Below, in pieces: positions 1 to 15,785 of a stretch of DNA of 63,767 nucleotides (positions are counted from its first letter, which is position 1; each line of letters begins with the position of its first letter). Location of the stretch: NCBI GenBank assembly GCA_015066095.1, contig SVPC01000009.1:1-63767 (forward strand), written 5' to 3'. The notes under the pieces were generated by a model. The model was not told the DNA's origin. It searched no databases and saw only the letters and a program-made list of their open reading frames with translations. A program made the translations under genes and the position numbers. Source of the DNA: Oscillospiraceae bacterium (GTDB lineage: Bacteria > Bacillota > Clostridia > Oscillospirales > Acutalibacteraceae).

Positions 1-2039
1 GCAATAGCAGCTCCAATTTTGGGGAATATGACTGTGCCTGCTGGTGCAGTTCCCCATTTCTTTGATGTGGCTAATTCATTGGAAACATAGTTGTTGCTGA
101 GATGCATTTCAACTTCGTTCCCTTTTGTGTTCATATCTCCCACTTTATAAAAGGGTATCGTTCCATCTTTACCCTGTAAAGCCATAGGGAAAGCATATCC
201 ACTAACCAGAGACGCAACAGATCCAATGGTAACAATTTTGTAGCTTGATTGGATTTCTTTCTGTTCCCGATATCTGCTTCCGACCAGAATACACGAATTC
301 CTGCGCACTTTTTCAAGCGGAATTACCTCGAATCCCACATTAAGCATATCAGCAGTCTGTTCCTCGTCTAACTTGCGGTATTCTTCATATTTTGCAAGAT
401 CACTTGGCGCATCAAGCTTGCGGCGGTGATTATCCAGAGTATAGCCATCGCTCTTTACATCAAAATACCAAAAACTCTTTTTCTTTTCAGAAGTTTTAAC
501 TTTTTTGTTAACTTTAGTTGCGTAGATAATATCAGTCTTTACGCCAGTATAGGGAAGAAAAACACCTTGCGGCAGAGAAATGATGCTCTGGAGCTGGCAG
601 TGATCCAGTAAATACTCACGTGTTTTCGCAAGATCTTTGCGGAACAGGAAGCCTTCCGGAACAACGAGTGCCATACGTCCATTTTCGGCAGTACTATTGA
701 TTGCCTTCATGCAATGCTGTACACAGATGCTATCGCCATTTGTACTGGGAAGATCATAAAGACTTCCGTGTTTGGTTTTTTGTGAATACGGCATATTTGC
801 AAGGACAATATCAAATCCTCTGTGATGCAAAACTCCATTTTCATCCGTATAGGTTTCAGTTCCATCAACAGGATTAGCCAAACTATCAAGCATTTGAATG
901 TTGCTGTGTCCATCACCGGCCAAAATCATATTCATTTTTGTAATACGGGCAGTGTTTGTAATTTCGTTTCCGTATACTGTAGACTCTCGCAAAGTTTTCA
1001 TATTAGCATCGGTTCTCGCCATATTGTTATGAATATACCGAAAACTTTCAATTAGGAATCCGCCAGTTCCACAGAATGGATCATAAATTTTCTCTCCAAT
1101 CTGAGGATTGACCAAGCGTACCATTGTCTTTACGATATGACGAGGCGTAAAATATTCACCTAAATCGTTCTTCGTAGAAGTAGACGCCTTTAAGAAATAT
1201 TCAAAAGCATCGCCCTTAACATCGCTATCTACATCGGTAAGCATAAGAGGATCAAGCTTATCCATAATTTCTTTAAGGATACTAGCATCTCTTATCTGCA
1301 ACGGGGTAAAAATATCGGTATTATACAGTGCGTTCAGCTTGTCATATACTGTTTTGTTGATATATTCAATACGAGTAGAGGAAGGAATCTGCTTGATACT
1401 ATCCCAACTGCAAGCAATATCAAATTTGGTCTGAATGCCATTTTCACGCTTTATCTGTTCGCTTTCGCTGATAAGTTTTAAGAATAGGATATTTGCAAAT
1501 TCTCCGAAGCGTTCAATACCAGCACGCAAACCTTCACCGCGAAGCATATTATTGGCTTCATCAAAAATACGGATAAGTTCTTTACGGTCATACTGAACTT
1601 TGGGACTGACGGTATTTACTTCATAGGAAGTCAAATAACGCAAAGCAAGAGCTTCACGCATAAACTCATCTACTTCTTCACCGTTAAGGATCGGAGGTCT
1701 ATTTGCAACAGTGTGAAATGCCTTGCAGAAAACGCCGTCAGTAGCGAAAACGAGAGGGGCCTCAATAGCTTTTGCATACTGAATACCTTGTTCCAATGCA
1801 GAATCTAAACGAACACCCTTCTTTTTCGCTTCGATTACAATAAGCGGTTTATCACTCTCTTTTGAATAGAGAACATAGTCGGGTCGCTTTCCACCTAGTT
1901 TCTTTTTCTCTGATTCAGAACGAGGTTGCTCGTAATAAACATTTTGATCTTTGCCGTTTAATTTCCAACCGAGATTTTCAAGGCTGCGGTCGATGAGTAT
2001 GCGAGTTTCCGCTTCTAAAGGCATAGTATTAATATTCAT
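1..2039 (-). CDS. Single-chain restriction-modification-specificity enzyme (Type IIG/I-like), partial
   Basis: This minus-strand reading frame is open for 679 codons and runs off the left edge, so the C-terminus is missing. The N-terminus carries a PD-(D/E)xK nuclease signature of the HsdR_N type (RPDYVLY, then VIEAKKK, roughly residues 50-75). An HsdM-like helical region follows, then an N6-adenine methylase with motif I (DPFCGTGGF) and motif IV (NMPY). The last visible 70 or so residues resemble an HsdS target-recognition domain (YKIVTIGSVASLVSGYAF, then FYKVGDMN). By family knowledge this fusion would both methylate and cut DNA at sites chosen by its own specificity domain. The start overlaps the upstream winged-helix gene in a TAATG, so translation is probably coupled. 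A separate HsdR or HsdS could lie outside the window. Confidence 0.85.
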   Translation of the reverse strand, partial: MNINTMPLEAETRILIDRSLENLGWKLNGKDQNVYYEQPRSESEKKKLGGKRPDYVLYSKESDKPLIVIEAKKKGVRLDSALEQGIQYAKAIEAPLVFATDGVFCKAFHTVANRPPILNGEEVDEFMREALALRYLTSYEVNTVSPKVQYDRKELIRIFDEANNMLRGEGLRAGIERFGEFANILFLKLISESEQIKRENGIQTKFDIACSWDSIKQIPSSTRIEYINKTVYDKLNALYNTDIFTPLQIRDASILKEIMDKLDPLMLTDVDSDVKGDAFEYFLKASTSTKNDLGEYFTPRHIVKTMVRLVNPQIGEKIYDPFCGTGGFLIESFRYIHNNMARTDANMKTLRESTVYGNEITNTARITKMNMILAGDGHSNIQMLDSLANPVDGTETYTDENGVLHHRGFDIVLANMPYSQKTKHGSLYDLPSTNGDSICVQHCMKAINSTAENGRMALVVPEGFLFRKDLAKTREYLLDHCQLQSIISLPQGVFLPYTGVKTDIIYATKVNKKVKTSEKKKSFWYFDVKSDGYTLDNHRRKLDAPSDLAKYEEYRKLDEEQTADMLNVGFEVIPLEKVRRNSCILVGSRYREQKEIQSSYKIVTIGSVASLVSGYAFPMALQGKDGTIPFYKVGDMNTKGNEVEMHLSNNYVSNELATSKKWGTAPAGTVIFPKIGAAI

Positions 2040-2421: not shown

Positions 2422-2820
2422 TTACTCCGCTTTGGTTGCTTTTTCTTTTGCTTCTTCCTCTTTGAGCCATTCTTCGTATTGACGATTTCCTTCTTCGGTT
2501 TCAAAAAAGGCATATATATCTGGAAGGATCGTTCTTACGTACGAGGCGAGCGCTTCTCGTGGAATTGTGCATTTAGCGTTCCTATTTACAAGCACTAAAT
2601 ATTTTAAAATTAAGAAGGCCTTTTTGAAAGGGTTGGCATGCTGCATTTCCTCTAGTTTGGGTTGAATTTGCCGAGCAACTGTTTTTGCTAAGATTTTATC
2701 CTCGGATTCAACTGCCTCTTTCAACTCCGCCTCAGTCATATTGGAATATGCAAAAGAGGCGTTCTTGATTAAAAACTGCAGTTCATCTTTCGCTATATTT
2801 TTGAGAGTGATTCTATTCAT
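2422..2820 (-). CDS. Hypothetical 132-aa protein with acidic/lysine-rich tail
   Basis: I do not recognise this protein. It is predicted to be soluble and mostly helical, with no signal peptide or membrane segment, and ends in a charged tail (WLKEEEAKEKATKAE). The start has an AGAAAGGA ribosome site 8 bases upstream. The 5' leader (3056 to 2821) is unusually long and contains four hairpin repeats and a leader motif also found upstream of the serine recombinase. That makes co-regulation with mobile-element genes plausible, but no function can be assigned. Confidence 0.65.
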   Translation of the reverse strand: MNRITLKNIAKDELQFLIKNASFAYSNMTEAELKEAVESEDKILAKTVARQIQPKLEEMQHANPFKKAFLILKYLVLVNRNAKCTIPREALASYVRTILPDIYAFFETEEGNRQYEEWLKEEEAKEKATKAE

Positions 2821-2866: not shown

Positions 2867-2890
2867 TGGCGAAGCAAGCAGTGTTATATA

Positions 2891-3050
2891 AAAACACGAT
2901 GCTTGCGAAGACTGCGTTGTGGATATCCATTCGCGATGCTTGCGGAGACAAGGACGCGCAATGATATCAAAACACGATGCTTGCGAAGACAAGGTCGTGT
3001 TATCATTGTGGTATCACAAACGCGATGCTTGCGAAGATGCTGACGTTATA
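2891..3050. repeat. Array of four hairpin-forming repeats (left array)
   Basis: Four copies of a core close to CRCGATGCTTGCGAAGA lie with their GATG at 2898, 2935, 2976 and 3024. Spacing is 37, 41 and 48 bases. Copies 2 and 3 form nested hairpins: an outer stem (in copy 3 AACACGA with TCGTGTT) and an inner stem (CTTG with CAAG). Around copy 3 the pairing extends to CAATGAT/ATCATTG. The array fills the gap between the 346-aa and 132-aa genes. The spacers are too short and irregular for a CRISPR. Inverted copies lie at 5825-5886. Confidence 0.8.
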
Positions 3051-3056
3051 TGATGT

Positions 3057-4097
3057 TTATATCATTAACGCTCCATTATTTGCAGGCAAGCTATCAGTAT
3101 CAATACCATTAGCCTCACAATAATACTCAAAAAATTCTTTCGCTAATTCAGCGTCCGAAGTATCTTTTTTAACTTCAACTATATCTCGCAAAATTTGAGC
3201 CGAAATAATATCGTTAATGTATCTATATAAACCCGAAGCCCAAGCAGCTTTTTCTTCGTCCTTTTGATTTTTATAATAATTCCAAAACAAGATCTTGTTT
3301 GCTTCATCGGGGGCAAGTTTCAATTTATATTTTGAATCGGTAGTTACGTAACCCTCTGCTTGTTCATCGCCCTCATAGGATTTATCAACAAGGAATACAC
3401 CAAATACCATACGTTCCGTTTCAATAGAATCTGGTTTTACCGTAGTTAATATACAAAGGCTATTCTTTTGAACTTTCTTCAATTTGCGCGGTCTATCCAT
3501 TTTACCGTTTTTAACATCGGTTCCGGCAGAAGCCTTCCAGTTTATTAACATACTGCTTTCATAACACAAAAAGTTGTTTGCATCATAAATCTCGCACAAA
3601 TCTTTATATGTTAATTCTCCATTCAAGAACTTTTTACACTCACATTGTTCGCTTGAACACCATGTGCGCTTCGCTTCAACAATGTTATGCTCTATTATAT
3701 TTTTACTGCAAACACCTGCGTAACCAATTTGCTTGCCAGATGCACCACCATCGCAATAGTTGCATTTAAACGCGATATTTTCTCTTTTATATGTCTTTCT
3801 TGCGGGTTTTTTAATAGAAGTTTTTTCTTTCACAATTAGTGTGCGCTGCTCTGCTTGCTTTCTTTTCAGTTCCTCTTTTTGAGCTGCATCATTTAAGATT
3901 TCCTGCTGTAACTCATCATTATCAATGATTTTCAAGAAACCACCAACAAATGCAGATGGATAAGAAAACTTAACGATATTTGTATCTTTTCCTATAGGTT
4001 TATTTTGGAACTTTACATACAGGTTTTGACCATCAAACTCAACTATTGCACCTTGTCCCCATAATTTATGTAATACTGATTTGTTTAATAAATCCAT
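3057..4097 (-). CDS. SH3-like plus cysteine-cluster protein, unknown function
   Basis: This 346-residue protein starts with a small beta-barrel-like segment (residues 8-30, LHKLWGQGAIVEF) resembling the SH3/Tudor-like tails of some helicases. A charged coiled-coil stretch follows (about 60-90). Next comes a cysteine cluster (C112, C115, C130, C147, C152, C154) that looks like a zinc-binding or modified-base-recognition fold. The C-terminal half has no motif I recognise. It starts 20 bases after the HD-DUF429 gene and is almost surely co-transcribed with it. The nucleic-acid-binding role is an inference from the barrel and the cysteines. Confidence 0.7.
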   Translation of the reverse strand: MDLLNKSVLHKLWGQGAIVEFDGQNLYVKFQNKPIGKDTNIVKFSYPSAFVGGFLKIIDNDELQQEILNDAAQKEELKRKQAEQRTLIVKEKTSIKKPARKTYKRENIAFKCNYCDGGASGKQIGYAGVCSKNIIEHNIVEAKRTWCSSEQCECKKFLNGELTYKDLCEIYDANNFLCYESSMLINWKASAGTDVKNGKMDRPRKLKKVQKNSLCILTTVKPDSIETERMVFGVFLVDKSYEGDEQAEGYVTTDSKYKLKLAPDEANKILFWNYYKNQKDEEKAAWASGLYRYINDIISAQILRDIVEVKKDTSDAELAKEFFEYYCEANGIDTDSLPANNGALMI

Positions 4098-4117
4098 TTA
4101 TAAATAATCTCCTTTAG

Positions 4118-5350
4118 TTAAAAATCTGCAACTACTATTTGCATTTTCAATCCTCTGCTATCCTCCTTGGGATCAGCAGGAATAGACTTAAATCCAAGTT
4201 TTGCAGTTACAGCAAGAGCAAGTGCATCCAAAATATCTTCTCTTGCGTTACGTGGTGTCATCCTGAGGAAGTCTTTTACATTTCTTACGTATTTCGATAG
4301 AATTTGAGTTCTTAGTTCAATTCCCTCGTCACTATGTTTTGAGAACTCAAGACCTTGACCGTTGTTAAGTGCTTGAAATGCACATTCAGGATGACTTTCT
4401 AAAAGTCTATTTTTCCACTCGGGATTTAAACTTAAAAACTCATCAACATCTTTGATGCATTTAATTATGCCAAAACTTTGAGAAGAAACCTTAGCACTCA
4501 ATTTCTTGTTAAGTGTCCAAAACTCCTCTTTATTTTCTGCATATATCATTTGTCTGAAAGGCACGTTAAAAATTGAGGATTTTCGGTTTTTGACTTTTAA
4601 ATAATCTCTTGCAGATTGATCGGGTCTATTTTCAGCTTCAGCAGAATTTTCAGGCAGACCTATTGGAGCATCAATTAAAATTACATCAGCATTTTCATAA
4701 TGTTCACAGAGAAGTTCAATATTATCGAACGTATCATAATGAACAATGTTATTATGCAATTCTACCGCAAGCCATTTGCCTTTTAACCAATCAACACCGA
4801 CAAATCGATTTTCTTTGATTCCGGTAAGAAGATTAAACTTGCTGATAAACTTGTTTTCAATTTCAGAAAAATCACAAAAATCATATTCTAATTCTGCTAC
4901 AATATTTGGCTCCTCATCACTTGTTTTTTCATCCATTAAATTTAAAAACTCGTGATACAAAACCGCATCGTCAATTTCGAATACTAATTTTCTTTCCTCG
5001 TCAGTAAGTGCGGGAGTGAGCCATTTATCAAATATTGTGTTTTGCAGTTTTTCTTCAACTTCTAAATATTTAGGTAGTTGCGCTTTGATTGGTCTTGTTA
5101 CATCGGAAAGATATGCTTCGCTTGCATCGTGCAACAAACAACCCAACTGAACACGCTTTGAATATCCACGCATCTTTGCTTCTTTTGCACAGTTCAAACA
5201 ATGTTGTGCTACAGAATAAAAATGCACGAAATGACCGTTTGCGCGACAAAGCAAAGATAGAGCATGAGCAATATCTGCAATTTCAATATCATTTATATCT
5301 GCATTAACGGGATCAAAATGTTTTTTGAGATAAGTTGTAATATAACTCAT
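4118..5350 (-). CDS. HD phosphohydrolase fused to DUF429 (RNase H-fold)
   Basis: Residues 1-140 match the HD family of (deoxy)nucleotide phosphohydrolases, with H50, the H74-D75 pair in LLHDASEAYL, and D127/D128 as likely metal ligands. Residues 183-410 match DUF429, a predicted RNase H-fold domain, with GVDW at 185-188 and IDAPIGLP around D228. The HD half would remove phosphate from nucleotides; DUF429 has no settled activity. Fusion of the two in one chain is unusual. The gene sits between a Cro-like regulator and the cysteine-cluster protein, beside a restriction system and a recombinase. A nucleotide-depleting or nuclease-type defence role is an inference. Confidence 0.8.
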   Translation of the reverse strand: MSYITTYLKKHFDPVNADINDIEIADIAHALSLLCRANGHFVHFYSVAQHCLNCAKEAKMRGYSKRVQLGCLLHDASEAYLSDVTRPIKAQLPKYLEVEEKLQNTIFDKWLTPALTDEERKLVFEIDDAVLYHEFLNLMDEKTSDEEPNIVAELEYDFCDFSEIENKFISKFNLLTGIKENRFVGVDWLKGKWLAVELHNNIVHYDTFDNIELLCEHYENADVILIDAPIGLPENSAEAENRPDQSARDYLKVKNRKSSIFNVPFRQMIYAENKEEFWTLNKKLSAKVSSQSFGIIKCIKDVDEFLSLNPEWKNRLLESHPECAFQALNNGQGLEFSKHSDEGIELRTQILSKYVRNVKDFLRMTPRNAREDILDALALAVTAKLGFKSIPADPKEDSRGLKMQIVVADF

Positions 5351-5455
5351 TGAAATACACCCTTTTGAATAAAACTTTTTTGTTACAACATTATTCTAAC
5401 ACAACTAAAGTCCCATATAACGGACAGTAAGTGGTGTATAATACAGATACTGAAG

Positions 5456-5662
5456 TTACTTTTCGGGAACAACTTCAACAATATCTTCAATGTTGCAATC
5501 TAAGGTGTAGCAAATTTTTTCGAGGGTTTCAATAGATACCGGTTCATCACGCCAAATCTTCGCCATAGCGTTGGTGGTGATTTTGGTCGCTTGTCTGAGT
5601 TGGGTATTGGTAATCTTTTTGTCTATCATAAGTTTCTTTAATTTGTCATAAGAACGTGCCAT
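5456..5662 (-). CDS. Cro/CI-type (XRE) transcriptional regulator
   Basis: This 68-residue protein is a single Cro/CI helix-turn-helix domain (TNTQLRQATKITTNAMAKIW), ending in LDCNIEDIVEVVPEK. The start at 5662 is chosen because GGAGG lies 8 bases upstream; the frame is open for five more codons. It is transcribed divergently from the recombinase, with a perfect inverted repeat between the two promoters, so it probably represses itself and/or the recombinase. A 105-base gap separates it from the downstream HD-DUF429 gene. Confidence 0.85.
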   Translation of the reverse strand: MARSYDKLKKLMIDKKITNTQLRQATKITTNAMAKIWRDEPVSIETLEKICYTLDCNIEDIVEVVPEK

Positions 5663-5695
5663 ATTGTAATCCTCCAATACAATAATTCATTTTAA

Positions 5696-5724
5696 ATTAT
5701 ATCATATCCTTCGACAATAGACAA
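5696..5724 (-). promoter_or_regulatory. Promoter of the XRE regulator
   Basis: On the minus strand the sequence is TTGTCT, 17 bases, then TATAAT, about 34 bases before the start codon. Confidence 0.6.
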
Positions 5725-5730
5725 CAATTT

Positions 5731-5749
5731 ATTTTGAAGTTCTCAAAAT
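5731..5749. promoter_or_regulatory. Candidate operator between divergent promoters
   Basis: ATTTTGA and TCAAAAT form a perfect 7-base inverted repeat around a 5-base centre, sitting between the XRE and recombinase -35 boxes. This is a typical spot for a Cro-like dimer, but binding by the neighbouring regulator is inferred. Confidence 0.5.
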
Positions 5750-5765
5750 ATTTTTGATTTTCTTG

Positions 5766-5794
5766 TGGACATAGCGTTTGCAATGTGCTATAAT
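5766..5794 (+). promoter_or_regulatory. Promoter of the serine recombinase gene
   Basis: The sequence is TGGACA, 17 bases, then TATAAT. The start codon is 161 bases further on, so the transcript would carry a leader of about 155 bases containing the hairpin repeats. Confidence 0.7.
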
Positions 5795-5824
5795 CAATTC
5801 ATAGAGAAAATTATTACGGCATCA

Positions 5825-5886
5825 TCTTCGCAAGCATCGCGTTTGGTCACCCACACTCCCGCGTCCTTGCCTTAGCAAGCATCGCG
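5825..5886. repeat. Two inverted copies of the hairpin repeat (right array)
   Basis: TCTTCGCAAGCATCGCG (5825-5841) and CCTTAGCAAGCATCGCG (5870-5886) are reverse complements of the left-array core. The second also keeps the GCGTCCTTG flank seen in left copy 2. Both lie in the recombinase 5' leader. Confidence 0.8.
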
Positions 5887-5904
5887 TTTGTGTACACAAA
5901 ACAC

Positions 5905-5930
5905 CTTGTTAGGGTGAGCCCTAAAACCCC
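5905..5930 (+). promoter_or_regulatory. Shared 5' leader motif, copy 2
   Basis: CTTGTTAGGG, a short gap, then CCCTAAAACCCC, followed by AGAAAGG. It matches the minus-strand leader of the 132-aa gene in content and order, and can form a TTAGGG/CCCTAA hairpin upstream of the recombinase ribosome site. Confidence 0.6.
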
Positions 5931-5955
5931 AATAAAAGAAAGGCAGGTGAAAAGT

Positions 5956-7515
5956 ATGACCGGTGTAATATATGCTAGATATTCAAGCGACCATCAGCGT
6001 GAAGAATCCATTGAAGGTCAAATTCGCGAATGCGAGGCTTATGCCAAGAAAAACGGAATAAGAGTTCTTAAGGTTTACACTGACCGTGCTTTCTCTGCCA
6101 AAAGTGATAACCGACCCGATTTTCAGAAAATGATTACTGATAGTCACCGTAAACTATTTGACGTGATTATTGTTTGGAAATTGGATAGATTCTCTCGTGA
6201 CCGCTATCACATGGCGCACTACAAACACATTTTGCAAAAGAACAATGTGCAGTTGCTTTCGGCAACAGAACCGATTCCTACGGATCCTGCGGGTATAATG
6301 ATGGAATCTATGCTCGTTGGTATGGCGGAATATTATTCGGTTGAGCTTGCTCAAAAAATCAATCGCGGTATGACCGAAAACGCGCTCAAATGTAAATATA
6401 ACGGTGGAACGCTCCCTGTAGGTTATAAAATCAACAAGCAGACTCGCCTTTACGAAATCGATACAACAACTTCACCGATTGTTAGAGAAGTTTATAATGC
6501 CTATCTCGACGGCAAAACCATGAAGCAAATTGCCGACAATCTCAACGAGCGTGGCTACCGCAACACTATTGGCAGAAAGTTTTCCATTGATAGCATTTCA
6601 CGAATGCTTCAAAACCGCCATTACATAGGCGAATACAAATACAAAGATATGATAACACCAAATGGTGTTCCCGCGATTATTTCTCCCGAGTTATTTGACG
6701 CTGTTCAAGAGAGAATCTCCAAAACAAAAAAGGCACCATCAAGCCATAAGGCAGTTGATGATTACCTTTTAACAACAAAATTGTATTGTGGACATTGCGG
6801 GTCCTTTATGGTTGGTGAAAGTGGCACAAGCAACAGTAATCGTATCTATCGTTATTACAAATGCGTCACCGCTAAAAGGCGCAAAGGATGCCACAAAAAA
6901 GCCGTTCGTAAAGAATGGATTGAAGATATCGTAATAAACGAAATCAGAAAGTTTCTTTACGATGATGAAGCCATTGATGAAATGATTAAGCTTGTAATGC
7001 AAGCTCAAAGGCAAGAGAATAAGAAGTTGCCGTTACTTAAAAAGGAATTACGCAGTGTTGAAAAAGGCATAAATAATATGCTCAACGCGATTCAAGACGG
7101 CATATATAATTCCTCCACCAAGAGACGCTTGGATGAGTTGGAGGAACGAAAAGAAGCGTTGGAAACTGAGATTGCTAATGAGCAGCTAATAAAACCGCTG
7201 TTAGAGCCCAAAAAGTTAAAATTTTATTTTATCAATCTCAGAAAACTTGATACCACAAAGCTGGAAGACCGGCGTTCGTTGATAAACAATTTCGTAAATG
7301 CAGTTGTTCTGCACGATGACCGCATTGATTTTGTTTTCAACTATCAAGACGGAACAAAAACCGTCACATTTGAAGAATTGAAAGAGGAGTCCGCCGATAG
7401 TTCGGATTTACTCGTGTCTGCTCGACCATATCGAGTGTTCATAACCAACTTGAATGTTAGAAATGAGCACTCGATTTCTTTTATCATAAAATCAGGATTT
7501 CTTTTAATGTTTTGA
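5956..7515 (+). CDS. Large serine recombinase
   Basis: This 519-residue site-specific recombinase has an N-terminal resolvase domain with the catalytic serine in IYARYSS and the arginines of KLDRFSRDR. Next come a recombinase domain (about 160-260), a zinc ribbon (CGHCGSFM, then CVTAKRRKGC), and a coiled-coil C-terminal region. The length is typical for integrases of Clostridia conjugative or prophage-like elements. The ATG at 5956 follows AGGCAGGTG; the frame is open for 22 codons upstream but lacks a ribosome site there. It probably integrates or excises the island containing it. I could not identify attachment sites. Confidence 0.92.
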   Translation: MTGVIYARYSSDHQREESIEGQIRECEAYAKKNGIRVLKVYTDRAFSAKSDNRPDFQKMITDSHRKLFDVIIVWKLDRFSRDRYHMAHYKHILQKNNVQLLSATEPIPTDPAGIMMESMLVGMAEYYSVELAQKINRGMTENALKCKYNGGTLPVGYKINKQTRLYEIDTTTSPIVREVYNAYLDGKTMKQIADNLNERGYRNTIGRKFSIDSISRMLQNRHYIGEYKYKDMITPNGVPAIISPELFDAVQERISKTKKAPSSHKAVDDYLLTTKLYCGHCGSFMVGESGTSNSNRIYRYYKCVTAKRRKGCHKKAVRKEWIEDIVINEIRKFLYDDEAIDEMIKLVMQAQRQENKKLPLLKKELRSVEKGINNMLNAIQDGIYNSSTKRRLDELEERKEALETEIANEQLIKPLLEPKKLKFYFINLRKLDTTKLEDRRSLINNFVNAVVLHDDRIDFVFNYQDGTKTVTFEELKEESADSSDLLVSARPYRVFITNLNVRNEHSISFIIKSGFLLMF

Positions 7516-7657: not shown

Positions 7658-8251
7658 TTAACAATTTAAAACATCACAAGAAACAATTAAATACTCAAAA
7701 TCATACACATTTTTAATAAACAGGGTAAGAGCAGATTTTTCGCGGCTTAAGGTGGTTTGGTTTGCGCGGCGTTCATATTTCAGATTTGTCACTGCATAGG
7801 TATACCTATTACCTTCTACATCGGTAACTATTACAGTATCACCAACGGAGATTTCACGGTAAAAATCGTATTGTCCCTTTTGGGAGGTTGCTCCAATTTG
7901 CATGGTGCCATTGTAAATACTACCATTAAATCTACAAGGATATTTTGTAAGATTTCCCCAATTGGCACCAACAGGAAGTGCCGACTCAAATCGTGGCATT
8001 TCCAATATGCCAACAAAATCTGTTTTATCAATAGAAAGAATTGGCATCCTATTATCTGTTCGTTCTTCCGGAACTGCGCCTTGCGGTTCATCGATTAGAT
8101 TGCGGAGAGTCTCAACATAAGTTTCTGATTTTTGCGCAGAAGAATAAATATTCCATTGCCAAGAAATCAGAAGTAATACACCAATCAAAAGCAAACAAAT
8201 ACCTGATAAAACGCAAAATTTCTGAATGACTGGTTTATTTATTTTATTCAT
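7658..8251 (-). CDS. Sortase-fold protein lacking the catalytic triad
   Basis: This 197-residue protein has one N-terminal membrane segment (residues 13-32), then a domain that aligns with sortases: VGILEMPRF, then GSIYNGTMQIG, then ISVGDTVIVTD. Compared with the active class C sortase two genes upstream, all three catalytic positions are changed. The histidine is T122 (IGATS), the cysteine K180 (LTLFIK) and the arginine Y187 (FEYLIV). It is the last gene of the pilus operon and overlaps the minor pilin by 8 bases. An assembly chaperone, anchor or pilin-binding role is an inference; transpeptidase activity is unlikely. Confidence 0.75.
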   Translation of the reverse strand: MNKINKPVIQKFCVLSGICLLLIGVLLLISWQWNIYSSAQKSETYVETLRNLIDEPQGAVPEERTDNRMPILSIDKTDFVGILEMPRFESALPVGANWGNLTKYPCRFNGSIYNGTMQIGATSQKGQYDFYREISVGDTVIVTDVEGNRYTYAVTNLKYERRANQTTLSREKSALTLFIKNVYDFEYLIVSCDVLNC

Positions 8252-9203
8252 ATGTATTTCTCTTTCCTATGATACCTAAAACAATCAACACACTTCCTGA
8301 GACAATTATAAGTATCACATACAACATAATGTTAGAAGTATCACCGGTTTGCGGAGCATCAAATGGTCCATCAGGACTATCCGGCGTATATGTATTAGTC
8401 AAAATGAATGATTTGCCACGTTTTTTGAGCGTCATAGTATATTCGGATGGAGTATTTCGCTCTATTACAGTCCATTTGGCACCATCATCTTTTGCGGTCC
8501 AACTATATAACCAATTGTTATCCTGTGAGAGAACTACCTTTTTATGGCTTTTTCCGTCTCGAAATATCTCTACCTCAACATTTTTTGGACGACTGTCTTT
8601 TCCTTCGTCACCTTTCCAAAGTTTAAGAACTTTTAGCTCTATCTCTTTATCACTTGGCGGTATCATCTCTGACTTAGAAGCAACTGTAACCCGATACTGT
8701 GGGCGGCCATCAGCACTGAGTCCAGGCAAAGCAACCAATGCAGAATCAAAATGACACATTAATTCTCCTTTGGTTATAGCGCCAACAACCGCAAGATATA
8801 AACCAGGATTTAAGTTTTCAAAACAAGCTATTCCCGTAGAATCTGTTTTTTCAATAGCGTCGGCGTTTATGTTATTTGCAATAATATTTGCCTCAAGTGT
8901 GGATTGTATCACATTCCATTCACTATTGGTATTTATACCATTCAAAACTAGCTCTGACGATTCAAAATGGGAAGTTAATGTGTACTGAAAAGCAGAGGAT
9001 ACATCGGCTATTTTATACAACTTCACAGATATATTCTCAAACGCTGTTCCATCACAAATATAAGAAAGCGTTAGTGCGCATTCCTCATTCACGTTGATTG
9101 GTTCAGATGCATCGGTAGTTGAAGCAGCTATTACAGTGCAAGAAGGTAGCCAAAAACAAAAACATATTAAAGCTATAATTATTGCCAATCTTCTTTTAGC
9201 CAT
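8244..9203 (-). CDS. Minor pilin with Cna_B domain and APQTG sorting signal
   Basis: This 319-residue surface protein has a signal peptide (residues 1-26), an N-terminal SpaA-like region (about 40-175), and a Cna_B-type domain (about 188-272). The C-terminus has an LPXTG-type signal, APQTG, at about 283-287, followed by a membrane segment and a KRNTYE tail. Replacing L with A in the motif is unusual but tolerated in some pilins. The start is preceded by AGGAGG and overlaps the sortase gene end by 25 bases. It probably forms the pilus base or is decorated along the shaft. Confidence 0.8.
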   Translation of the reverse strand: MAKRRLAIIIALICFCFWLPSCTVIAASTTDASEPINVNEECALTLSYICDGTAFENISVKLYKIADVSSAFQYTLTSHFESSELVLNGINTNSEWNVIQSTLEANIIANNINADAIEKTDSTGIACFENLNPGLYLAVVGAITKGELMCHFDSALVALPGLSADGRPQYRVTVASKSEMIPPSDKEIELKVLKLWKGDEGKDSRPKNVEVEIFRDGKSHKKVVLSQDNNWLYSWTAKDDGAKWTVIERNTPSEYTMTLKKRGKSFILTNTYTPDSPDGPFDAPQTGDTSNIMLYVILIIVSGSVLIVLGIIGKRNTYE

Positions 9204-10042
9204 TCATCTTCCTCCTTTGAGATTAAGGGTTTGCTTCCCTTATCTCGATATTTTATCATCAAAACAATCAATAGAATAAGCAGAATCGGTGCTGCTACAG
9301 CAGGGGTTGCCACAAGAGAATCTATTCGATAAGCATTAGAAGTAACATGCAGCACGGGTGCCGCAGATTCAATACGCTTTCCCCTAACTAACAATCTGTG
9401 AGAATTAATGCCGTAGGGAGTACAAGTAAGTAAGGTGCATAAATCTTCTCCTTGGGCAATTTGAATATCGCTCGTTTCATTTGGAAGAACAACTTTAATT
9501 TGGTCTACCTGATAAGTAACTGTTCGGTCAATTACTGTAATAGTAAATGTGTCGCCAACTTCCATTTTATCCAGTTCGGTAAATAACTTAGCGTGTGGTA
9601 ATCCGCGGTGTGCCGATAGAACACAATGTGTATTTTCTCCTCCTATAGGTAAAGAGGTTCCCTCTATATGGCCGCAGGCCTTGTTTAAAACCTCAGCAGA
9701 AATTCCGTGGTATAACGGCAATTCTACACCAAGTTTTGGAATGGATACATAGCCCATAATACCTGTTTGGCTTACATTAAGGATATCGTTATATCCCTTA
9801 AGGTTATGATAATCATTTAATGGGAAATTTAGTTTATTAAGCTCTGCATTATAATTTTCTGCTTCTTGAAAAAAAACATCATAATCTTCAGGCTTTAAAG
9901 AATCTAAAATTTCTCGATAATTTTCAACAGCTTTAGTTTGCGTTTTAGAATTCCAATACTGGCTAACAGATGGATAAAGCAATCCACAGACGCCTACGAA
10001 TAGCATCACAACCAATAGAATTCCTATTTTGTTTTTCTTCAT
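9179..10042 (-). CDS. Class C (pilus) sortase
   Basis: This 287-residue membrane enzyme cross-links pilin subunits through LPXTG signals. It has an N-terminal membrane segment (6-24) and a C-terminal one (about 245-263), both typical of class C. The catalytic residues are H145 (SAHRG), C207 (LLTCTPYG) and R216 (HRLLVRG). An N-terminal stretch around 75-100 may hold the lid. It follows the backbone pilin after a 130-base gap with two strong hairpins, consistent with lower expression than the pilin. Confidence 0.93.
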   Translation of the reverse strand: MKKNKIGILLVVMLFVGVCGLLYPSVSQYWNSKTQTKAVENYREILDSLKPEDYDVFFQEAENYNAELNKLNFPLNDYHNLKGYNDILNVSQTGIMGYVSIPKLGVELPLYHGISAEVLNKACGHIEGTSLPIGGENTHCVLSAHRGLPHAKLFTELDKMEVGDTFTITVIDRTVTYQVDQIKVVLPNETSDIQIAQGEDLCTLLTCTPYGINSHRLLVRGKRIESAAPVLHVTSNAYRIDSLVATPAVAAPILLILLIVLMIKYRDKGSKPLISKEEDEWLKEDWQ

Positions 10043-10073
10043 AAGTATCTGTCCACCGCCTTATTTATAGATT

Positions 10074-10102
10074 GCGGTGGATGACGGATAAACATCCACC
10101 GC
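10074..10102 (-). promoter_or_regulatory. Intercistronic hairpin 2 (pilin-sortase gap)
   Basis: A 10-base perfect stem (GCGGTGGATG with CATCCACCGC) around a 9-base loop. There is no T run, so it looks like an RNA-stability or processing structure. Confidence 0.6.
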
Positions 10103-10116
10103 CAATCTTAAACCTG

Positions 10117-10146
10117 GTCTAAACTGTGCTTGAGCACAGTTTAGAC
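10117..10146 (-). promoter_or_regulatory. Intercistronic hairpin 1 (pilin-sortase gap)
   Basis: A perfect 13-base stem (GTCTAAACTGTGC with GCACAGTTTAGAC) around 4 bases, 25 bases after the backbone pilin stop. The lack of a T run suggests it protects the pilin message 3' end or partly stops transcription. Confidence 0.65.
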
Positions 10147-10171
10147 ATAATTAGTTTAAGTAAGTTAATTT

Positions 10172-11659
10172 TTAGTCTTCAAAAACAGACATTTTCTTGC
10201 GAGTAATCATAAATACACCAGCCAAGATTACGAGCATTGCACCACCGATAATTAACCACATGGTACCCATACCGCCGGTTTCAGGAAGAACTGTACCGGT
10301 AAGGTTTACAACTACATCGCTGATTTTACCAGCGTCTGCATCTGTTGTCATACCATCAACAGTCAAAGTATCAATGCCATCAATGTCATATGTTGCAGCA
10401 ATTGTGAATTCTAGGTCTGCCATTTTGTTATATCCTTCAGGAGCTTCATCTTCTTCAAGAATATAGTCGCCATCATCAAGACCAAGCCATTCGAAGGTGG
10501 TTTGGTCACTTGCGGTATATGAACCTATAAGGGTTTTAACGCCATCAACCATTTTGTAAAGAGAGAATGCTGCGCCCGGAAGAAGTGCTCCATTTTCAGT
10601 AAGAGCTCTCTTTTCGATTACTAACTTATAGGTATATACTACAACGTTATCAGAAGTAGTACCAGTAGAATTAGTATCATAAGGATTGTTAGAGAATACT
10701 AATTTAACGGTATTGGGGTTGCCATCTTCGCCAATGGTAGCGCCATTTGCAAGTTCTGCCTTATATGTAACCTCAAAAACAGAATCAGCAGTAACAGCAA
10801 CGCCGTCAAGTGTTTTAATGTCTTCTAAAACAACCTTGAAATCGGGGTCTGTGCCTGTTGTAACGGAGTAATGTGTGTTTAGTGTAAGTGTTTTTGCATC
10901 TGCTTCAACTTTTTGATTGTTAGGATAAACCTTAACTACGATTGACTCTTCTTTAAGGTTATATCCTTCAAAGTTATCTTGGAATTCAAGCTTATAAGAA
11001 TTGTAAGAAGCAAGGTGGTCGTGTACGGTTGCGGTTAGTTTGAACTCAACATCTTCGCCGATACGAGCATCAGCAGCCTTGCCCCAAAGTTTTGTTGTTG
11101 CATCTTTAACTTCCTTTGTAATAGAGGGAAGACCTTCTTTGGGATTAACTGTAATTTCGCCTTTGCCTTTGGTGTCAACCATAACAACAGAGTTTGCCTC
11201 TTTACCTTCTTTATTAAGGTCGGTTACGTCGGCAAACAGCCAATAACCCTGGTCGAGTTCGGTAGGAGTGTTGCCAGCAATTTGTTTAGGAGTGAAGGTT
11301 CCTTCAGGTTTGCTCTTAATTGCACGATAGATATCGTCAGCAATTTTCTGCATTTCTGCTGTATTGCTTTGAACTTCGGTGCCAAGATATTTAATAATAT
11401 CAGCTTTGGTGTCTTTTCCGGTAACATCTTTTAGAATATCGAAATATTCATCGTTTACGCTGTATGCGTAGTTGTAGCAAGTGTCTTCATGATTATGGTT
11501 TTCAGCACACTTTAAGCTAGTGGTTACGGTCATCAGTTGATAACCTAAATATTCGCGACCAACGGTTCCGATAGTCACGTCAGTGTCAGCCGCAAGTGCA
11601 GGGATGGTAATGGCAAAAATCATTACCAATGCCAGGAAAATAGATGCTAGTTTTTTCAT
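10172..11659 (-). CDS. Major (backbone) pilin, LPETG-anchored
   Basis: This 495-residue protein has a signal peptide (1-23) and several Ig-like/Cna_B-type domains that form isopeptide bonds in this family. The C-terminus carries LPETG (about 458-462), a membrane segment and a basic tail. A pilin-motif-like VKVYPN occurs about the middle, with N where the usual lysine of YPK stands. Nearby lysines may serve instead. Near the N-terminus is a CAENHNHEDTC cysteine-histidine motif that echoes two copies in the tip protein. It starts in an ATGA overlap with the tip gene. Confidence 0.88.
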   Translation of the reverse strand: MKKLASIFLALVMIFAITIPALAADTDVTIGTVGREYLGYQLMTVTTSLKCAENHNHEDTCYNYAYSVNDEYFDILKDVTGKDTKADIIKYLGTEVQSNTAEMQKIADDIYRAIKSKPEGTFTPKQIAGNTPTELDQGYWLFADVTDLNKEGKEANSVVMVDTKGKGEITVNPKEGLPSITKEVKDATTKLWGKAADARIGEDVEFKLTATVHDHLASYNSYKLEFQDNFEGYNLKEESIVVKVYPNNQKVEADAKTLTLNTHYSVTTGTDPDFKVVLEDIKTLDGVAVTADSVFEVTYKAELANGATIGEDGNPNTVKLVFSNNPYDTNSTGTTSDNVVVYTYKLVIEKRALTENGALLPGAAFSLYKMVDGVKTLIGSYTASDQTTFEWLGLDDGDYILEEDEAPEGYNKMADLEFTIAATYDIDGIDTLTVDGMTTDADAGKISDVVVNLTGTVLPETGGMGTMWLIIGGAMLVILAGVFMITRKKMSVFED

Positions 11660-14600
11660 AATTTTTTCCTTCCTTTTTTTATATTTTTCTTTCTCCTTTT
11701 TGTGCTTGCAGAGTAAGGAAAGTTATCCGTTGCCTTTCCTTCTCGCTTACGCTTTCGGATAAATATATATACAAACGGTGCAATAATAAATAATGCACTC
11801 GAAAGTAATATTGGATAAACACCAACTGAACCTGTTGCCGGTAGGTTGTAGGATAAAAGTTCGTTAGTTAAGTCAATATGTCCTACGCTATTAAATGGAA
11901 TGCGAACTAAATCTTTTCCAGCAACTAAATCTTGATATAAATTGCAATTTTCACCTGAGCTTGAACAGAAGCAGAACCAATGTTTGGCATCATCTAATTT
12001 ATAGCCAGAAGGTGCTTCAATTTCTTGAACGTAATATAGTTCGTGCTCTCTAAGAATAATACCTTCTTCAACGTTGGTTTCAAAAAGAATTTTTCCTTCT
12101 GAGTCGGTATAGGTTTCAATAATTAAACCCCCGTGCTCGTTAAATACACCAAATTTTGCACCAGGTAAGTTTTTACGGTCAGTAGCCGTAATTTTGTGCA
12201 ATATTACCGCATAGTAGCTCGATGCAATATTGATATCGGGATAAACTCGTTCTGTACTTATATCGGTTACTTTCTTGTTCCATAAGGTAACCGTTGCCGA
12301 GTTGTTATAGGTAACGCTGTCCTTAGTACCTGGCGGAATTATCAAGGTTGTATCGTAATCTAAGAAGTAGGTGACAGGTTGTGGGTGCAGTATCTCAATT
12401 TCAAGAACATGTACCTTTTGTCCATTAACAACCTTTTCTCCCGTACCATCATAAGTATAGGTGTAATCAACGTTTTCTTGTAAATAAACCTCATTACCTG
12501 CGGCATCTACCGATTTAACAACCAAAGTACCTCTGATAAAAGCTAAGGTTTCGGTCATTTCATCATGAATTAACAGTGGTGTGCCATCGGTTAAGTTAAG
12601 TTTTGATTCATTTACCGTAATTGTATATTTAGCAATTAAATCTTTAAACTCGGTACCTTTTTTCTCAACAACACTCGGTATAGGAATATCTGTATTGATA
12701 TATTCACCATTATAACCAGATTTGCCTAATCCAACTCTATTTCGCATATAGTAACCTAAACCACTATATTGTGCTATTTCGTCAGTAATGTCCGTTTTGT
12801 ATGTAATAGTAAAGGTTGTATCTTCTGTTTCTAACCAGCAACGACAATAATCCGTTAATATCTCCCGTCCATCTTTCCAATACACTTCTTTCCAGCAAGG
12901 ATTTCCACAAGGGTTTTTGTCACAATTACATCTAGATAAAAATAATATTTGCCTAACATTTTGTATTTGATTAGTCCCTTGATCTTCCGGCCAGGTATAA
13001 AGTTGATATGCGTACGGATCATCTTCAGTGGCATCGGTGATAAATGGAACATTTATGGTTTGTCCGTAAAAGTTTGCTGTAACAGAAGCAACGTCTAAAT
13101 CATTATAAATATATTCTACTCTACTACCATTAGAGTCAATTAGATTCATTGAATCAAGTACGTACCACTCATAATCTATATTTTCCTTTTTGCCAGGAAT
13201 AGTTGCTTTTATCTCCCAAATAATATTTGCACCATTAGCATCGGTTACAATGGTGCCATTTTTAAATATCGCCGCATTTATTTCTGTTTGTGTAAAGCCA
13301 CCCCAACCTTCTTGTTTTTGATTATCTGTTTCTATGCTATTGGTGTATGAAAGTTCACCTGCCACGTCGGTATGGGTTGGTGTTGAAGTATACTCAATAT
13401 AGTAACTCCAATATTCATTACCAAGTACCGCCTCATGACCCATGGTACACCAAATCGTTTCAGGCATAGTATAACTCCAACCTTTCTCGGTCCAAGTTAG
13501 GTTCTCGTCTCCTGGGTAAACTGTCCATTGGTGCCAAAAGGTTTCGGTGGTGTCATTTGGGTTAACTACCGAAGCACCAAATCTAATACCTGCATCCATA
13601 TCAGATTGAGTATAGGTGTGTTCGTAACTCCAATCATATTGAATAATGTTGTCTTTAATTGTGCTTCCGGGGATATTAGAATCGGCGTTACCCTCAATTA
13701 AAACCGTCCAATATAATTTTGATTCATCGGTTTTGGTTGCCATAGAAGGATTATTTACATTAGCTTCATTTCCTTGAATGCCCCATTTTTGAACCTCAGT
13801 AACGGCAATTTCTTCTCTAGGTGGTTCAATAGTAACCATAATCTTGCCATCAAAATCAATGGGTTCGTCTTGTTCCGGGAAGGACACGCCGATAGTTGCA
13901 CTAATAGTAACGTCTGTACGGGTATTCATATTATCGTTAAACACTATGCTTAAAAGACCGTTTTTGTTGATACTCCAACTACCAACGTTGGTTTTATCGG
14001 TTAATATGAAGTCTCCCTTAAATTCGTTTTCGTGGCCCTCAATAGTTATTCCCTCAGGTAATTGATATGTATAAGTGCCGGGTGCAAAACCTTTGGAGCT
14101 ATGAGTTGTTAGTGTTATTTTATAAAGTGTGTTAGCGTGCACTATTAAGTTGCCGTTTTCATCTTTTGGTACCGCATGGTTATAAGCATCTAATAGCGTG
14201 AAAGAATAAGAACCACCTTTTGTATTTAAGTAGGTAATTAAGTCGTTAATTTCGTCATTTCCGTTTTTAGTAGTTCTAAGATTATAGGTTCTAATGGTTG
14301 AAGTAACAGTTGTGCCGCTTTCACCATCAAAAACAAATACTGCAGGACCATTTGAAATGTCTAACAGTTCTTCTAATGAAAGTGAGTTGCTTATAGTACC
14401 GAAGCCATCAATTGAAGAATCAGCCAACTGAATTAACTCCCCACACACACTACCATCAACATCACCCCGAATAACGTAGAAAGAACTATTTAATAGGTCT
14501 GAAACTATGCCAACCGTATTGTCTTTAAAGAATATCAAGTCGCCAACAATGGGTTGATATGAATTTGCAGATTTATACTTACCTAAAGTTTTCCATTGAG

Positions 14601-15156
14601 CCGCCATTGCATTAGCACCAGAATTTGAGGGGAATTGGTCATTATCAGCACCTGCATAATGCAAGCAGAACGATACAAATATTGCAGACCAATTACTATA
14701 TGGTGTTCCATACCACTCACCATATCGTGTATATCCATGTCTAACACCAGATTGGTCCACTTGGAAATTCAATTTGCTTTCTGAATAACCAACCTGTGTT
14801 TTGGCAATACCGACTAAGTCCTTACCAAGATTTCCTGTAAAAGGATAATCTTCAAACATTTTCTGCCAATCAAGTTGTGATTCTACATCAGCAGTTTCAT
14901 CAGAATAGCAATCAATGGTATGAATGTGTTCTACTATCTGACATGAGCTTTCACCGTTTTTGCATAATTCATTGTGTGAATGCTCGGTTATACCACAATC
15001 GGCATTTCCTGCCAAAGTAAGACCGGGTTGACGTAAAGACCAGAAGACGTCTAATGAAACTACGAGGGAGAGAACAAGCAGAATGGCAACCATCCGCGTT
15101 CTTCTAACTCGCTTTTTCTTTAATTTCTTTAGGCTTTCGTTCAAGATATCCTGCAT
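11656..15156 (-). CDS. Large pilus tip/ancillary protein with degenerate CHAP-like domain, LPATG
   Basis: This 1166-residue surface protein has an N-terminal signal/anchor (20-42). Two identical-spacing C-x4-H-x-H-x3-C motifs follow (about 54-65 and 72-83), then a CHAP/NlpC-like domain (about 107-260). In the latter the usual catalytic cysteine after W156 is S157, and the histidine before GIV is T214. Long beta-rich repeats and a cysteine-rich patch follow, then a Cna_B-like domain near 990-1075. LPATG lies at about 1105-1109, then a membrane segment. A 33-residue, very basic tail follows the membrane, far longer than normal; its last codons form the ribosome site of the pilin gene. It probably sits at the pilus tip and binds a surface. 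Confidence 0.85.
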   Translation of the reverse strand: MQDILNESLKKLKKKRVRRTRMVAILLVLSLVVSLDVFWSLRQPGLTLAGNADCGITEHSHNELCKNGESSCQIVEHIHTIDCYSDETADVESQLDWQKMFEDYPFTGNLGKDLVGIAKTQVGYSESKLNFQVDQSGVRHGYTRYGEWYGTPYSNWSAIFVSFCLHYAGADNDQFPSNSGANAMAAQWKTLGKYKSANSYQPIVGDLIFFKDNTVGIVSDLLNSSFYVIRGDVDGSVCGELIQLADSSIDGFGTISNSLSLEELLDISNGPAVFVFDGESGTTVTSTIRTYNLRTTKNGNDEINDLITYLNTKGGSYSFTLLDAYNHAVPKDENGNLIVHANTLYKITLTTHSSKGFAPGTYTYQLPEGITIEGHENEFKGDFILTDKTNVGSWSINKNGLLSIVFNDNMNTRTDVTISATIGVSFPEQDEPIDFDGKIMVTIEPPREEIAVTEVQKWGIQGNEANVNNPSMATKTDESKLYWTVLIEGNADSNIPGSTIKDNIIQYDWSYEHTYTQSDMDAGIRFGASVVNPNDTTETFWHQWTVYPGDENLTWTEKGWSYTMPETIWCTMGHEAVLGNEYWSYYIEYTSTPTHTDVAGELSYTNSIETDNQKQEGWGGFTQTEINAAIFKNGTIVTDANGANIIWEIKATIPGKKENIDYEWYVLDSMNLIDSNGSRVEYIYNDLDVASVTANFYGQTINVPFITDATEDDPYAYQLYTWPEDQGTNQIQNVRQILFLSRCNCDKNPCGNPCWKEVYWKDGREILTDYCRCWLETEDTTFTITYKTDITDEIAQYSGLGYYMRNRVGLGKSGYNGEYINTDIPIPSVVEKKGTEFKDLIAKYTITVNESKLNLTDGTPLLIHDEMTETLAFIRGTLVVKSVDAAGNEVYLQENVDYTYTYDGTGEKVVNGQKVHVLEIEILHPQPVTYFLDYDTTLIIPPGTKDSVTYNNSATVTLWNKKVTDISTERVYPDINIASSYYAVILHKITATDRKNLPGAKFGVFNEHGGLIIETYTDSEGKILFETNVEEGIILREHELYYVQEIEAPSGYKLDDAKHWFCFCSSSGENCNLYQDLVAGKDLVRIPFNSVGHIDLTNELLSYNLPATGSVGVYPILLSSALFIIAPFVYIFIRKRKREGKATDNFPYSASTKRRKKNIKKGRKKL

Positions 15157-15194
15157 GTTTCTCCCTCCTTTCTTTTAAGTGGTTTTAAAAGTTC

Positions 15195-15785
15195 TTAGTT
15201 AACGAATCCGAATTCGGAAATTGGCCATACTCTTATGAAAACCTTTCCGATAATATCATCTCTTGAAATTGCTCCAACTACCGAATTTCGACTGTCCACC
15301 GAATTGGAGCGTTTATCACCAAGTACAAAGTAACTGGTTCCCGGTACTTTATAGGGGAATTCCAAGTCACAATCTCCAAGTTCCTTATTGGTAACATAAG
15401 GTTCTTCTAATAATTCACCATTAACATAGACATTACCATCGGCGTCAATAGCCAGCTCTTCATCTGGCAAAGCTATAACTCGTTTAAGTAAAATTTTACC
15501 CTGATAATAGAAACCAACCAAGTCGCCACGTTCAAATGACTTTGTTTTTAAAAGAACAACTATTTCATCATGTTCCAAAGTGGGTGACATACTGTCCCCC
15601 GAAATTTGAAGTATTGGTAAAAACAAAGTGGTAATTAAAACTGCGACGGCGGCTACAACCAAGAGCACAGAAACCGTACCTCGAAGAGCTTGGCGATAGT
15701 ATGTTCCTCTTCGTATGCGTTTGCGCTCACTTTGAATTTCTGTTAGTGAAGGAATAGAAACCTTTTTTGCGTGTTTATTAGCCAT
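15195..15785 (-). CDS. Signal peptidase I of the pilus locus
   Basis: This 196-residue membrane protease cleaves signal peptides. One membrane segment lies at about 33-57. The catalytic serine is in SGDSMSPT and the lysine in LLKRVIALP. The later boxes GDKRSNSVDSR and GKVFIRVWP fit type I signal peptidases. A dedicated signal peptidase in a sortase-pilus cluster (compare SipA) is common and may process or chaperone pilins. It overlaps the upstream coiled-coil gene by 8 bases. Confidence 0.92.
   Translation of the reverse strand: MANKHAKKVSIPSLTEIQSERKRIRRGTYYRQALRGTVSVLLVVAAVAVLITTLFLPILQISGDSMSPTLEHDEIVVLLKTKSFERGDLVGFYYQGKILLKRVIALPDEELAIDADGNVYVNGELLEEPYVTNKELGDCDLEFPYKVPGTSYFVLGDKRSNSVDSRNSVVGAISRDDIIGKVFIRVWPISEFGFVN

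Follow-up and report, generated by a model that had tools for sequence, protein, structure and literature searches.

We analysed a 63,767-nucleotide stretch of Oscillospiraceae bacterium DNA (contig SVPC01000009.1; hereafter the window), in which a gene encoding an HD domain fused to a DUF429 domain (HD-DUF429) is followed by a gene for a second protein, here called PZ. HD-DUF429 belongs to a real family of fusion proteins, is enriched near defence genes, and can best be regarded as a gene for an optional effector, not as part of a stand-alone two-gene system. The first-pass annotation had proposed the set as an undescribed defence module. That proposal is upheld in so far as the family keeps the company of defence genes and relatives of both proteins lie within a single Azaca gene run of another organism, whereas a conserved two-gene system was not found; the defence reading is thus partly supported. 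The interpretation we favour, tentatively, is that HD-DUF429 is an accessory antiviral effector that travels as an add-on set with PZ as its reader and a Cro-like protein as its repressor. The three genes concerned are:

3057..4097, minus strand: PZ, 346 residues, with a tudor/SH3-like N-terminal barrel, six cysteines and a C-terminal part
4118..5350, minus strand: HD-DUF429 fusion, 410 residues, a single frame with profile matches and matches to PDB sequences
5456..5662, minus strand: Cro/C1-type regulator, HTH_26 (PF13443; E 1.3e-20), first gene of the co-directional set

PZ starts 20 nucleotides downstream of the HD-DUF429 stop, and the Cro-like gene, rightly placed upstream by the first-pass annotation, lies about 105 nucleotides from HD-DUF429 on the same strand.

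HD-DUF429 is, as had been described, one 410-residue chain with both domains. DUF429 (PF04250) was matched at residues 185-393 with 157.4 bits against a cut-off of 23 (E 5.5e-46). The HD region, about residues 20-150, scored just under the Pfam cut-off with HD_3 (21.9 versus 22.5 bits; E 1.8e-4) and gave 15 bits against a cut-off of 25.9 with the YfbR-like HD profile; its top match among PDB sequences was Atu1052 (2gz4; E 5.8e-9), and some homologues carry PF13023 in the precomputed database annotation. In predicted models the HD part takes a YfbR/Atu1052-like HD fold and the DUF429 part a RuvC-like fold, with the DUF429 acids lying on the early strands and the C-terminal helix, the placement that marks the RNase H-like superfamily. 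The predicted sites are:

H50, H74, D75, E78 and D127: HD site of a YfbR/Atu1052-like HD phosphohydrolase
D187, D227, D372 and D375: acids of the RuvC-like DUF429 domain

From the domains and from precedent we infer a nucleotidase activity for the HD domain and a nuclease activity for DUF429. The acid at 227 replaces D228, which had been named in error as the conserved DUF429 residue. Neither HD-DUF429 nor PZ matched a PADLOC family at E up to 1, so that the pair is not a named system in the PADLOC library, in keeping with the earlier remark that the combination was not a recognised one. The analogy with dGTPase-type defence is looser than had been implied: no PADLOC dGTPase model matched HD-DUF429, Pfam and NCBIfam give other HD models, and the nearest HD proteins are Atu1052 and the 5'-deoxynucleotidase YfbR, leaving the idea of a nucleotide-acting enzyme to stand by analogy.

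A protein database search with the fusion gave 1486 proteins at E ≤ 0.001, and 117 of the best 120 of these 1486 carried the full-length fusion, so the joining of HD and DUF429 is not chance. Among the best 80 of 557 relatives kept from a scan of GTDB contigs, 24 had both domains (one cut by a contig end) and 56 had HD only. Of 391 genomes drawn from the class, four (one of them that of the window) contained the fusion and 18, at the same threshold, contained HD alone; among 200 genomes of the family the fusion was found in the window's own genome only. That genome, 28 contigs totalling 1.32 Mb with a completeness of 95.5%, has one DUF429 match. Carriage of the fusion by plasmids or phages was not seen: none of 89 matching plasmid records and none of 166 matching phage records covered at least 80% of the query; in a scan of viral contigs, tblastn found the DUF429 part in none of the 80 loci kept. 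In one contig (G638:C78; loci L241 and L254) an HD domain of this family lies inside a 461-residue open frame, possibly another fusion.

Residue conservation was read from an alignment of 139 rows, made up of the window protein, the 117 database matches and 21 genome loci (L024-L026, L032 and L051 stand outside this alignment and the tree). H50, H74, D75, E78, D127 and D227 were invariant, so that the H...HD...D metal-binding motif (H50, H74, D75, D127) was intact in all 139 members, and D187, D375 and D372 were present in 136, 138 and 135 rows, respectively. The three rows lacking D187 (L037, L040 and L041) form one Peptococcaceae clade with ordinary chromosomal surroundings and a retained HD site. 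L033, truncated at the C-terminus before D372, is the fourth row without that residue and has lost the C-terminal DUF429 acids. In these four copies the nuclease half therefore looks inactive.

Gene neighbourhoods were compared between 22 fused and 22 HD-only loci, the latter taken from the same GTDB contig scan. Open reading frames that encode 100 residues or more and lie no further than 3.5 kb away (144 for the fused loci; 145 for the controls, 144 after one long frame was dropped) were searched with PADLOC models at E ≤ 1e-15. Neighbours of the fused genes matched 257 PADLOC families and those of the HD-only genes 29, figures that overstate the number of proteins because the families overlap and one protein may match many, and that are a contrast with no per-locus control count rather than a count of systems. 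A PglX/type IIG-type protein, WYL and SspH are found among the HD-only neighbours too. For counts of loci we used a non-redundant set of 22 fused loci, in which L024 and L025 were merged into L023 and L026 into L022, L051 and L251 were dropped, and L252 and L253 were added; L023-L025 count once, L251 is L024 (100% over 7608 bases), and L026, cut at the gene, encodes a protein 93% identical to that of L022. The set used for the PADLOC contrast contained L026 and lacked L252. L023, L024 and L025 are near-identical stretches of 7.6-7.7 kb (99.6-99.8%) in records labelled Cloacimonadota, Lutispora and Firmicutes, which reflects either recent transfer or binning error. Defence-type genes were present within about 7 kb in 10 of the 22 non-redundant loci:

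L021: SEFIR/TIR, from Pfam names
L022 (Clostridium manihotivorum): DrmA, DrmB, a PLD protein and type III restriction-modification, with HD-DUF429 after DrmA, DrmB and PLD
L023: type III Res, PDC-M14A, helicase and WYL
L027 (Lacrimispora amygdalina): Azaca
L029: HATPase, McrBC (under the Pfam cut-off) and NERD, from Pfam names
L030: HEC-02A ATPase
L031: AAA_21 and DUF4276, from Pfam names
L033: an HsdM-like match (28% identity), WYL and GmrSD
L034: HerA (under the Pfam cut-off) and an ATPase matching NsnB/PDC-M55A
L042: PLD-helicase and SIR2/PDC-S25

Four further loci (L018, L028, L032 and L252) were short or ambiguous; the neighbours in L032 include a PIN/AbrB-like pair and genes of hydrogenase type. 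No PADLOC match was obtained for the HATPase of L029, the L023 gene at 5314-6297 or a 613-residue protein of L032. XRE-type genes lie near HD-DUF429 in six of the listed loci, L022-L026 and L029.

The closest link to a known system is with Azaca, which consists of ZacA (DUF6361), ZacB (PLD) and ZacC (a helicase). In L027, from L. amygdalina strain PI-S10-A1B, genes for WYL, PZ, ZacA, ZacB, ZacC, HD-DUF429 and an ADP-ribosylglycohydrolase follow one another on one strand with small gaps or overlaps, and probably form one operon; the PADLOC matches of ZacA, ZacB and ZacC had E values of 3.5e-85, 2.1e-139 and 9.3e-282. In L209 the order is ZacA, ZacB, ZacC, PZ, a 370-residue protein whose start resembles ADP-ribosylglycohydrolases by inspection, and WYL. 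PZ is thus attached to Azaca in two arrangements, and the joint presence of HD-DUF429 and PZ relatives in one Azaca gene run makes it likely that the pair is antiviral. The window differs in that its genome, 95.5% complete as given above, had no DUF6361 match in a search whose control genomes also gave none; nor did either protein match a PADLOC family, and membership of a named system was not found for the window set. The same DUF6361 search had matches in 2 of 109 class genomes. ADP-ribose-type genes were also seen near the genes in question at L018 (7604-12342), L028 (2132-4083), L027 (11257-12909) and L209 (10977-12089), including a DUF3990 gene in L018 and genes that are macro-like by inspection in L018 and L028. 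A match to ADP-ribosylglycohydrolase in L271, 58 residues long, was left out of account.

PZ agrees with its first description as a neighbour with an SH3-like barrel and six clustered cysteines. The barrel gave a weak match to the PcrA/UvrD tudor profile (E 0.0042) and aligns with tudor/CarD-type domains, some of them RNA-polymerase-bound. Cysteines C112, C115, C130, C147 and C178 were present in 121 of 121 aligned proteins and C154 in 120. The highest-scoring structural rows for the modelled C-terminal part were EVE/YTH (PUA-like) domains. Pfam EVE or YTH was matched in none of 24 PZ members at E up to 0.05, in a search with little sensitivity to remote relatives. The EVE profile PF01878 was matched in 4 of 196 class genomes, too small a number for comparing profiles. 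PZ had no match to sequences of solved structures at E up to 1, and none to a viral fold library at E ≤ 0.001, where the top rows were mostly barrel-sized. Relatives of PZ occur on four plasmid records (48% of the query), one phage record and one viral contig. Among 17 other PZ loci, defence genes adjoin PZ in L027, L209, L211, L212 and probably L274, the last three with these genes:

L211: HsdR, helicases and a type IV restriction enzyme
L212: GmrSD
L274: an HsdM-like match

Eight loci of shorter PZ relatives (L214-L221) were covered by a tblastn probe only. In L210 and L213, PZ adjoins a DUF6998 gene (by Pfam in L210) and genes that are RtcB-like by inspection; the PZ match in L213 contains stops.

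The three window genes are bracketed by repeats and adjoin a recombinase gene:

2880..3050, plus strand: four repeats with CGCGATGCTTGCGAAGA cores at 2895, 2932, 2973 and 3021, the left cassette edge, beside PZ
5812..5890, minus strand: two inverted copies with cores at 5825 and 5870, the right cassette edge, beyond the Cro-like gene
about 5956..7515, plus strand: large serine recombinase (Resolvase, Recombinase and Zn-ribbon domains), directly beyond the right repeats; the start codon at 5956 is our choice, the listed frame running from 5890

With up to two mismatches, CGCGATGCTTGCGAAGA had six matches in the window genome, all at the two cassette edges, and the reversed control had none. The two innermost arms, at 3017-3050 and 5812-5845, show 91% complementarity. 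When three hairpin-like units were folded as DNA, two scored better than every one of 200 shuffles; for the third, 12 of 200 shuffles did as well. A longer, looser pattern was matched in 19 of 60 genomes, and its backwards control also matched in good number; two close copies of that pattern together were found only in genome G1010 besides the window, where the pair lies about 1.3 kb beyond another serine recombinase. Because inverted repeats bracket the genes beside a serine recombinase, the arrangement suggests that the HTH, HD-DUF429 and PZ cassette is mobile or invertible. In the G1010 locus (L302; G1010:C30, 2084-8563), of the same genus, the serine recombinase and the repeat copies at 4939 and 4988 adjoin a ParB-like gene and an 864-residue protein of no recognised kind, which by inspection is perhaps another cargo.

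Several known proteins resemble parts of this set. RelZ (MSMEG_5849) links an RNase HII of the DUF429 type to a (p)ppGpp synthetase (PMC4429107, PMC7591505, PMC3153485), with a reported nuclease activity of DUF429 and a tie to replication stress in Mycobacterium rather than to defence (PMC7591505). RelZ and HD-DUF429 are alike in joining DUF429 to an enzyme of nucleotide metabolism in one chain; they differ in the partner, a RelA/SpoT-type synthetase in RelZ and an HD domain here. YfbR and Atu1052 are single HD proteins, from which HD-DUF429 is set apart by its fusion and by its frequent place in defence islands. Defence by dGTPases and dCTP deaminases works by nucleotide depletion, and by analogy HD-DUF429 might follow the same antiviral principle of a nucleotide-acting enzyme; it differs in its lack of a PADLOC match, in its nearest solved HD structures and in its extra nuclease-fold domain. 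The likeness to DISARM is confined to L022, and HD-DUF429 is not known to figure in any definition of DISARM. Compared with modified-base readers of the EVE/YTH type such as VcaM4I (EVE-HNH), PZ lacks a Pfam EVE/YTH match, has an extra cysteine cluster and has no nuclease domain. A search of a limited literature collection found no account of an HD-DUF429 defence gene.

As an accessory antiviral effector, HD-DUF429 would use its RuvC-like DUF429 domain to cleave nucleic acid that arises during phage infection and its YfbR-like HD domain to take the 5'-phosphate off (deoxy)nucleotides, both released and free ones, and so starve replication; this order of events is modelled on the domains and on precedent. 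PZ would serve as the reader, recognising modified or foreign nucleic acid through its predicted EVE/YTH-like part and its cysteine cluster, and the Cro-like protein would hold down expression of the set. These genes would travel as an add-on, which in the window is a stand-alone cassette and at other loci a further gene next to those of Azaca, DISARM or restriction systems. A more specific form of this proposal, a mobile "cut-and-drain" cassette, is rather unlikely as a whole. In it, the RuvC-like site would first cut an infection-related RNA:DNA hybrid or branched DNA, the YfbR-like site would then remove the 5'-phosphate of the released deoxynucleotides and block their reuse by the phage, and the tudor-zinc-EVE/YTH-like reader of modified bases would guide the attack. 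The modules would be interchangeable, both genes joining Azaca loci and HD-DUF429 also joining loci of DISARM and restriction systems. Were the effector reading true, a two-activity nucleotide-destroying effector would be added to the antiviral repertoire, DUF429 would gain a second biological setting beside RelZ, and Azaca would prove to be a locus open to extension by optional genes for effectors and readers. The question of a defence role can be tested directly with the conserved residues and the L027 gene run.

A number of observations, in addition to the limits of the PADLOC contrast, weigh against the effector reading. To our knowledge, no activity, substrate or phage phenotype has been described for HD-DUF429. 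The proposed association with defence genes, though far stronger for the fused family than for HD-only relatives, failed in 8 of the 22 non-redundant loci, where inspection found no defence neighbour (L019, L020, L035, L036, L037, L040, L041 and L253, with L020 a contig of only 4.9 kb), and L033, although linked to defence genes, is missing the DUF429 acids at the C-terminal end. On the tree the defence label, which is our own reading (L018 and L028 scored as not, the window as defence, L020 and L252 left out), was scattered with six changes; 190 of 500 shuffles were as low, and the label is not clustered. The window itself groups with L018 and L019, both without clear defence neighbours. Co-occurrence of HD-DUF429 and PZ, which the first-pass annotation had proposed to score, was rare. 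Adjacency or a shared gene run was found only twice, in the window and in L027, and the pair was therefore rejected as a general two-gene system. Among 24 fusion genomes, full-length PZ was present in one, where it is adjacent, a PZ without its N-terminus lay on another contig in one, and two had only shorter, partial relatives; among 24 HD-only genomes PZ was present in none and a fragment in one. The two Azaca loci from the draw of 109 class genomes, found without regard to the pair, had neither HD-DUF429 nor PZ, and no recognised defence system was obvious beside PZ in 12 of the 17 other PZ loci. The structural match of PZ to EVE/YTH domains was barely above noise. Finally, mobility of DUF429 was judged improbable in a survey from 2014, on the ground that close relatives share a conserved gene context (PMC3985635).

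Some of these points would suit a role in nucleotide house-cleaning, in which HD-DUF429, as part of normal physiology, clears (deoxy)nucleotides that are damaged or unusual, together with RNA:DNA hybrids, and lies in islands only since islands collect genes. This explanation, doubtful but deserving of weight, draws on the loci without defence neighbours, on the conserved DUF429 context, on the excess of HD-only relatives over fusions (56 of the best 80 of 557 loci; 18 of 22 matching class genomes), and on RelZ, whose link is to replication stress and not to defence (PMC7591505). Further, loss of D187 with the HD site intact in the L037/L040/L041 clade implies that HD is the constant function. 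House-cleaning fits poorly with the contrast to HD-only controls from the same scan, with the place of HD-DUF429 in a gene run with Azaca and near DISARM/PLD genes and WYL regulators, and with the patchy distribution of the fusion (4 of 391 class genomes). It is unlikely, at a lower level again, that HD-DUF429 and PZ are regulatory or sensing accessories that clear signal nucleotides or bind modified DNA and thereby switch a neighbouring defence system. The position of one or other gene beside ZacABC or DrmAB (L022, L027, L209), the association with WYL and XRE genes and the tudor/CarD-type alignment of the PZ barrel are consistent with such a role, which is hard to square with two almost invariant enzymatic sites and with a window pair that has no ZacABC in its genome (the DUF6361 search, with its control genomes also unmatched).

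A toxin-antitoxin-like unit, in which the Cro-like protein restrains a growth-stopping HD-DUF429 and the repeats mark a mobile addiction element, would explain the co-directional HTH gene upstream, the cassette repeats with their serine recombinase, and the XRE-type genes near other family members (of these loci, L023-L025 are near-identical and the L022 and L026 proteins closely related). We consider it improbable, as the HTH gene is not conserved with the enzyme, other loci having WYL, XRE or no regulator. That HD-DUF429 and PZ are unrelated hitch-hikers, side by side in the window by chance, is very improbable: each is mostly found without the other, but both recur in the one Azaca gene run of L027, and in the window they are closely spaced on one strand inside a single repeat-bracketed cassette.

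The genes to the left of the cassette are:

3..2039, minus strand: N-6 DNA methylase, type I-like, with an HsdR_N-like N-terminus, cut by the contig end
2039..2311, minus strand: winged-helix protein, upstream of the methylase
2422..2820, minus strand: 132-residue protein with no family over the cut-off

The first-pass annotation had the set flanked by a recombinase and a restriction enzyme. The former is the serine recombinase; the latter is the methylase (N6_Mtase, E 5.4e-50; top PADLOC model a type I methyltransferase, E 3.7e-75), so no nuclease subunit was seen. Beyond the recombinase, inspection of the open reading frames at 7658-15785 picked out genes for sortase-like, surface and signal-peptidase-like proteins, which may form a pilus cluster.

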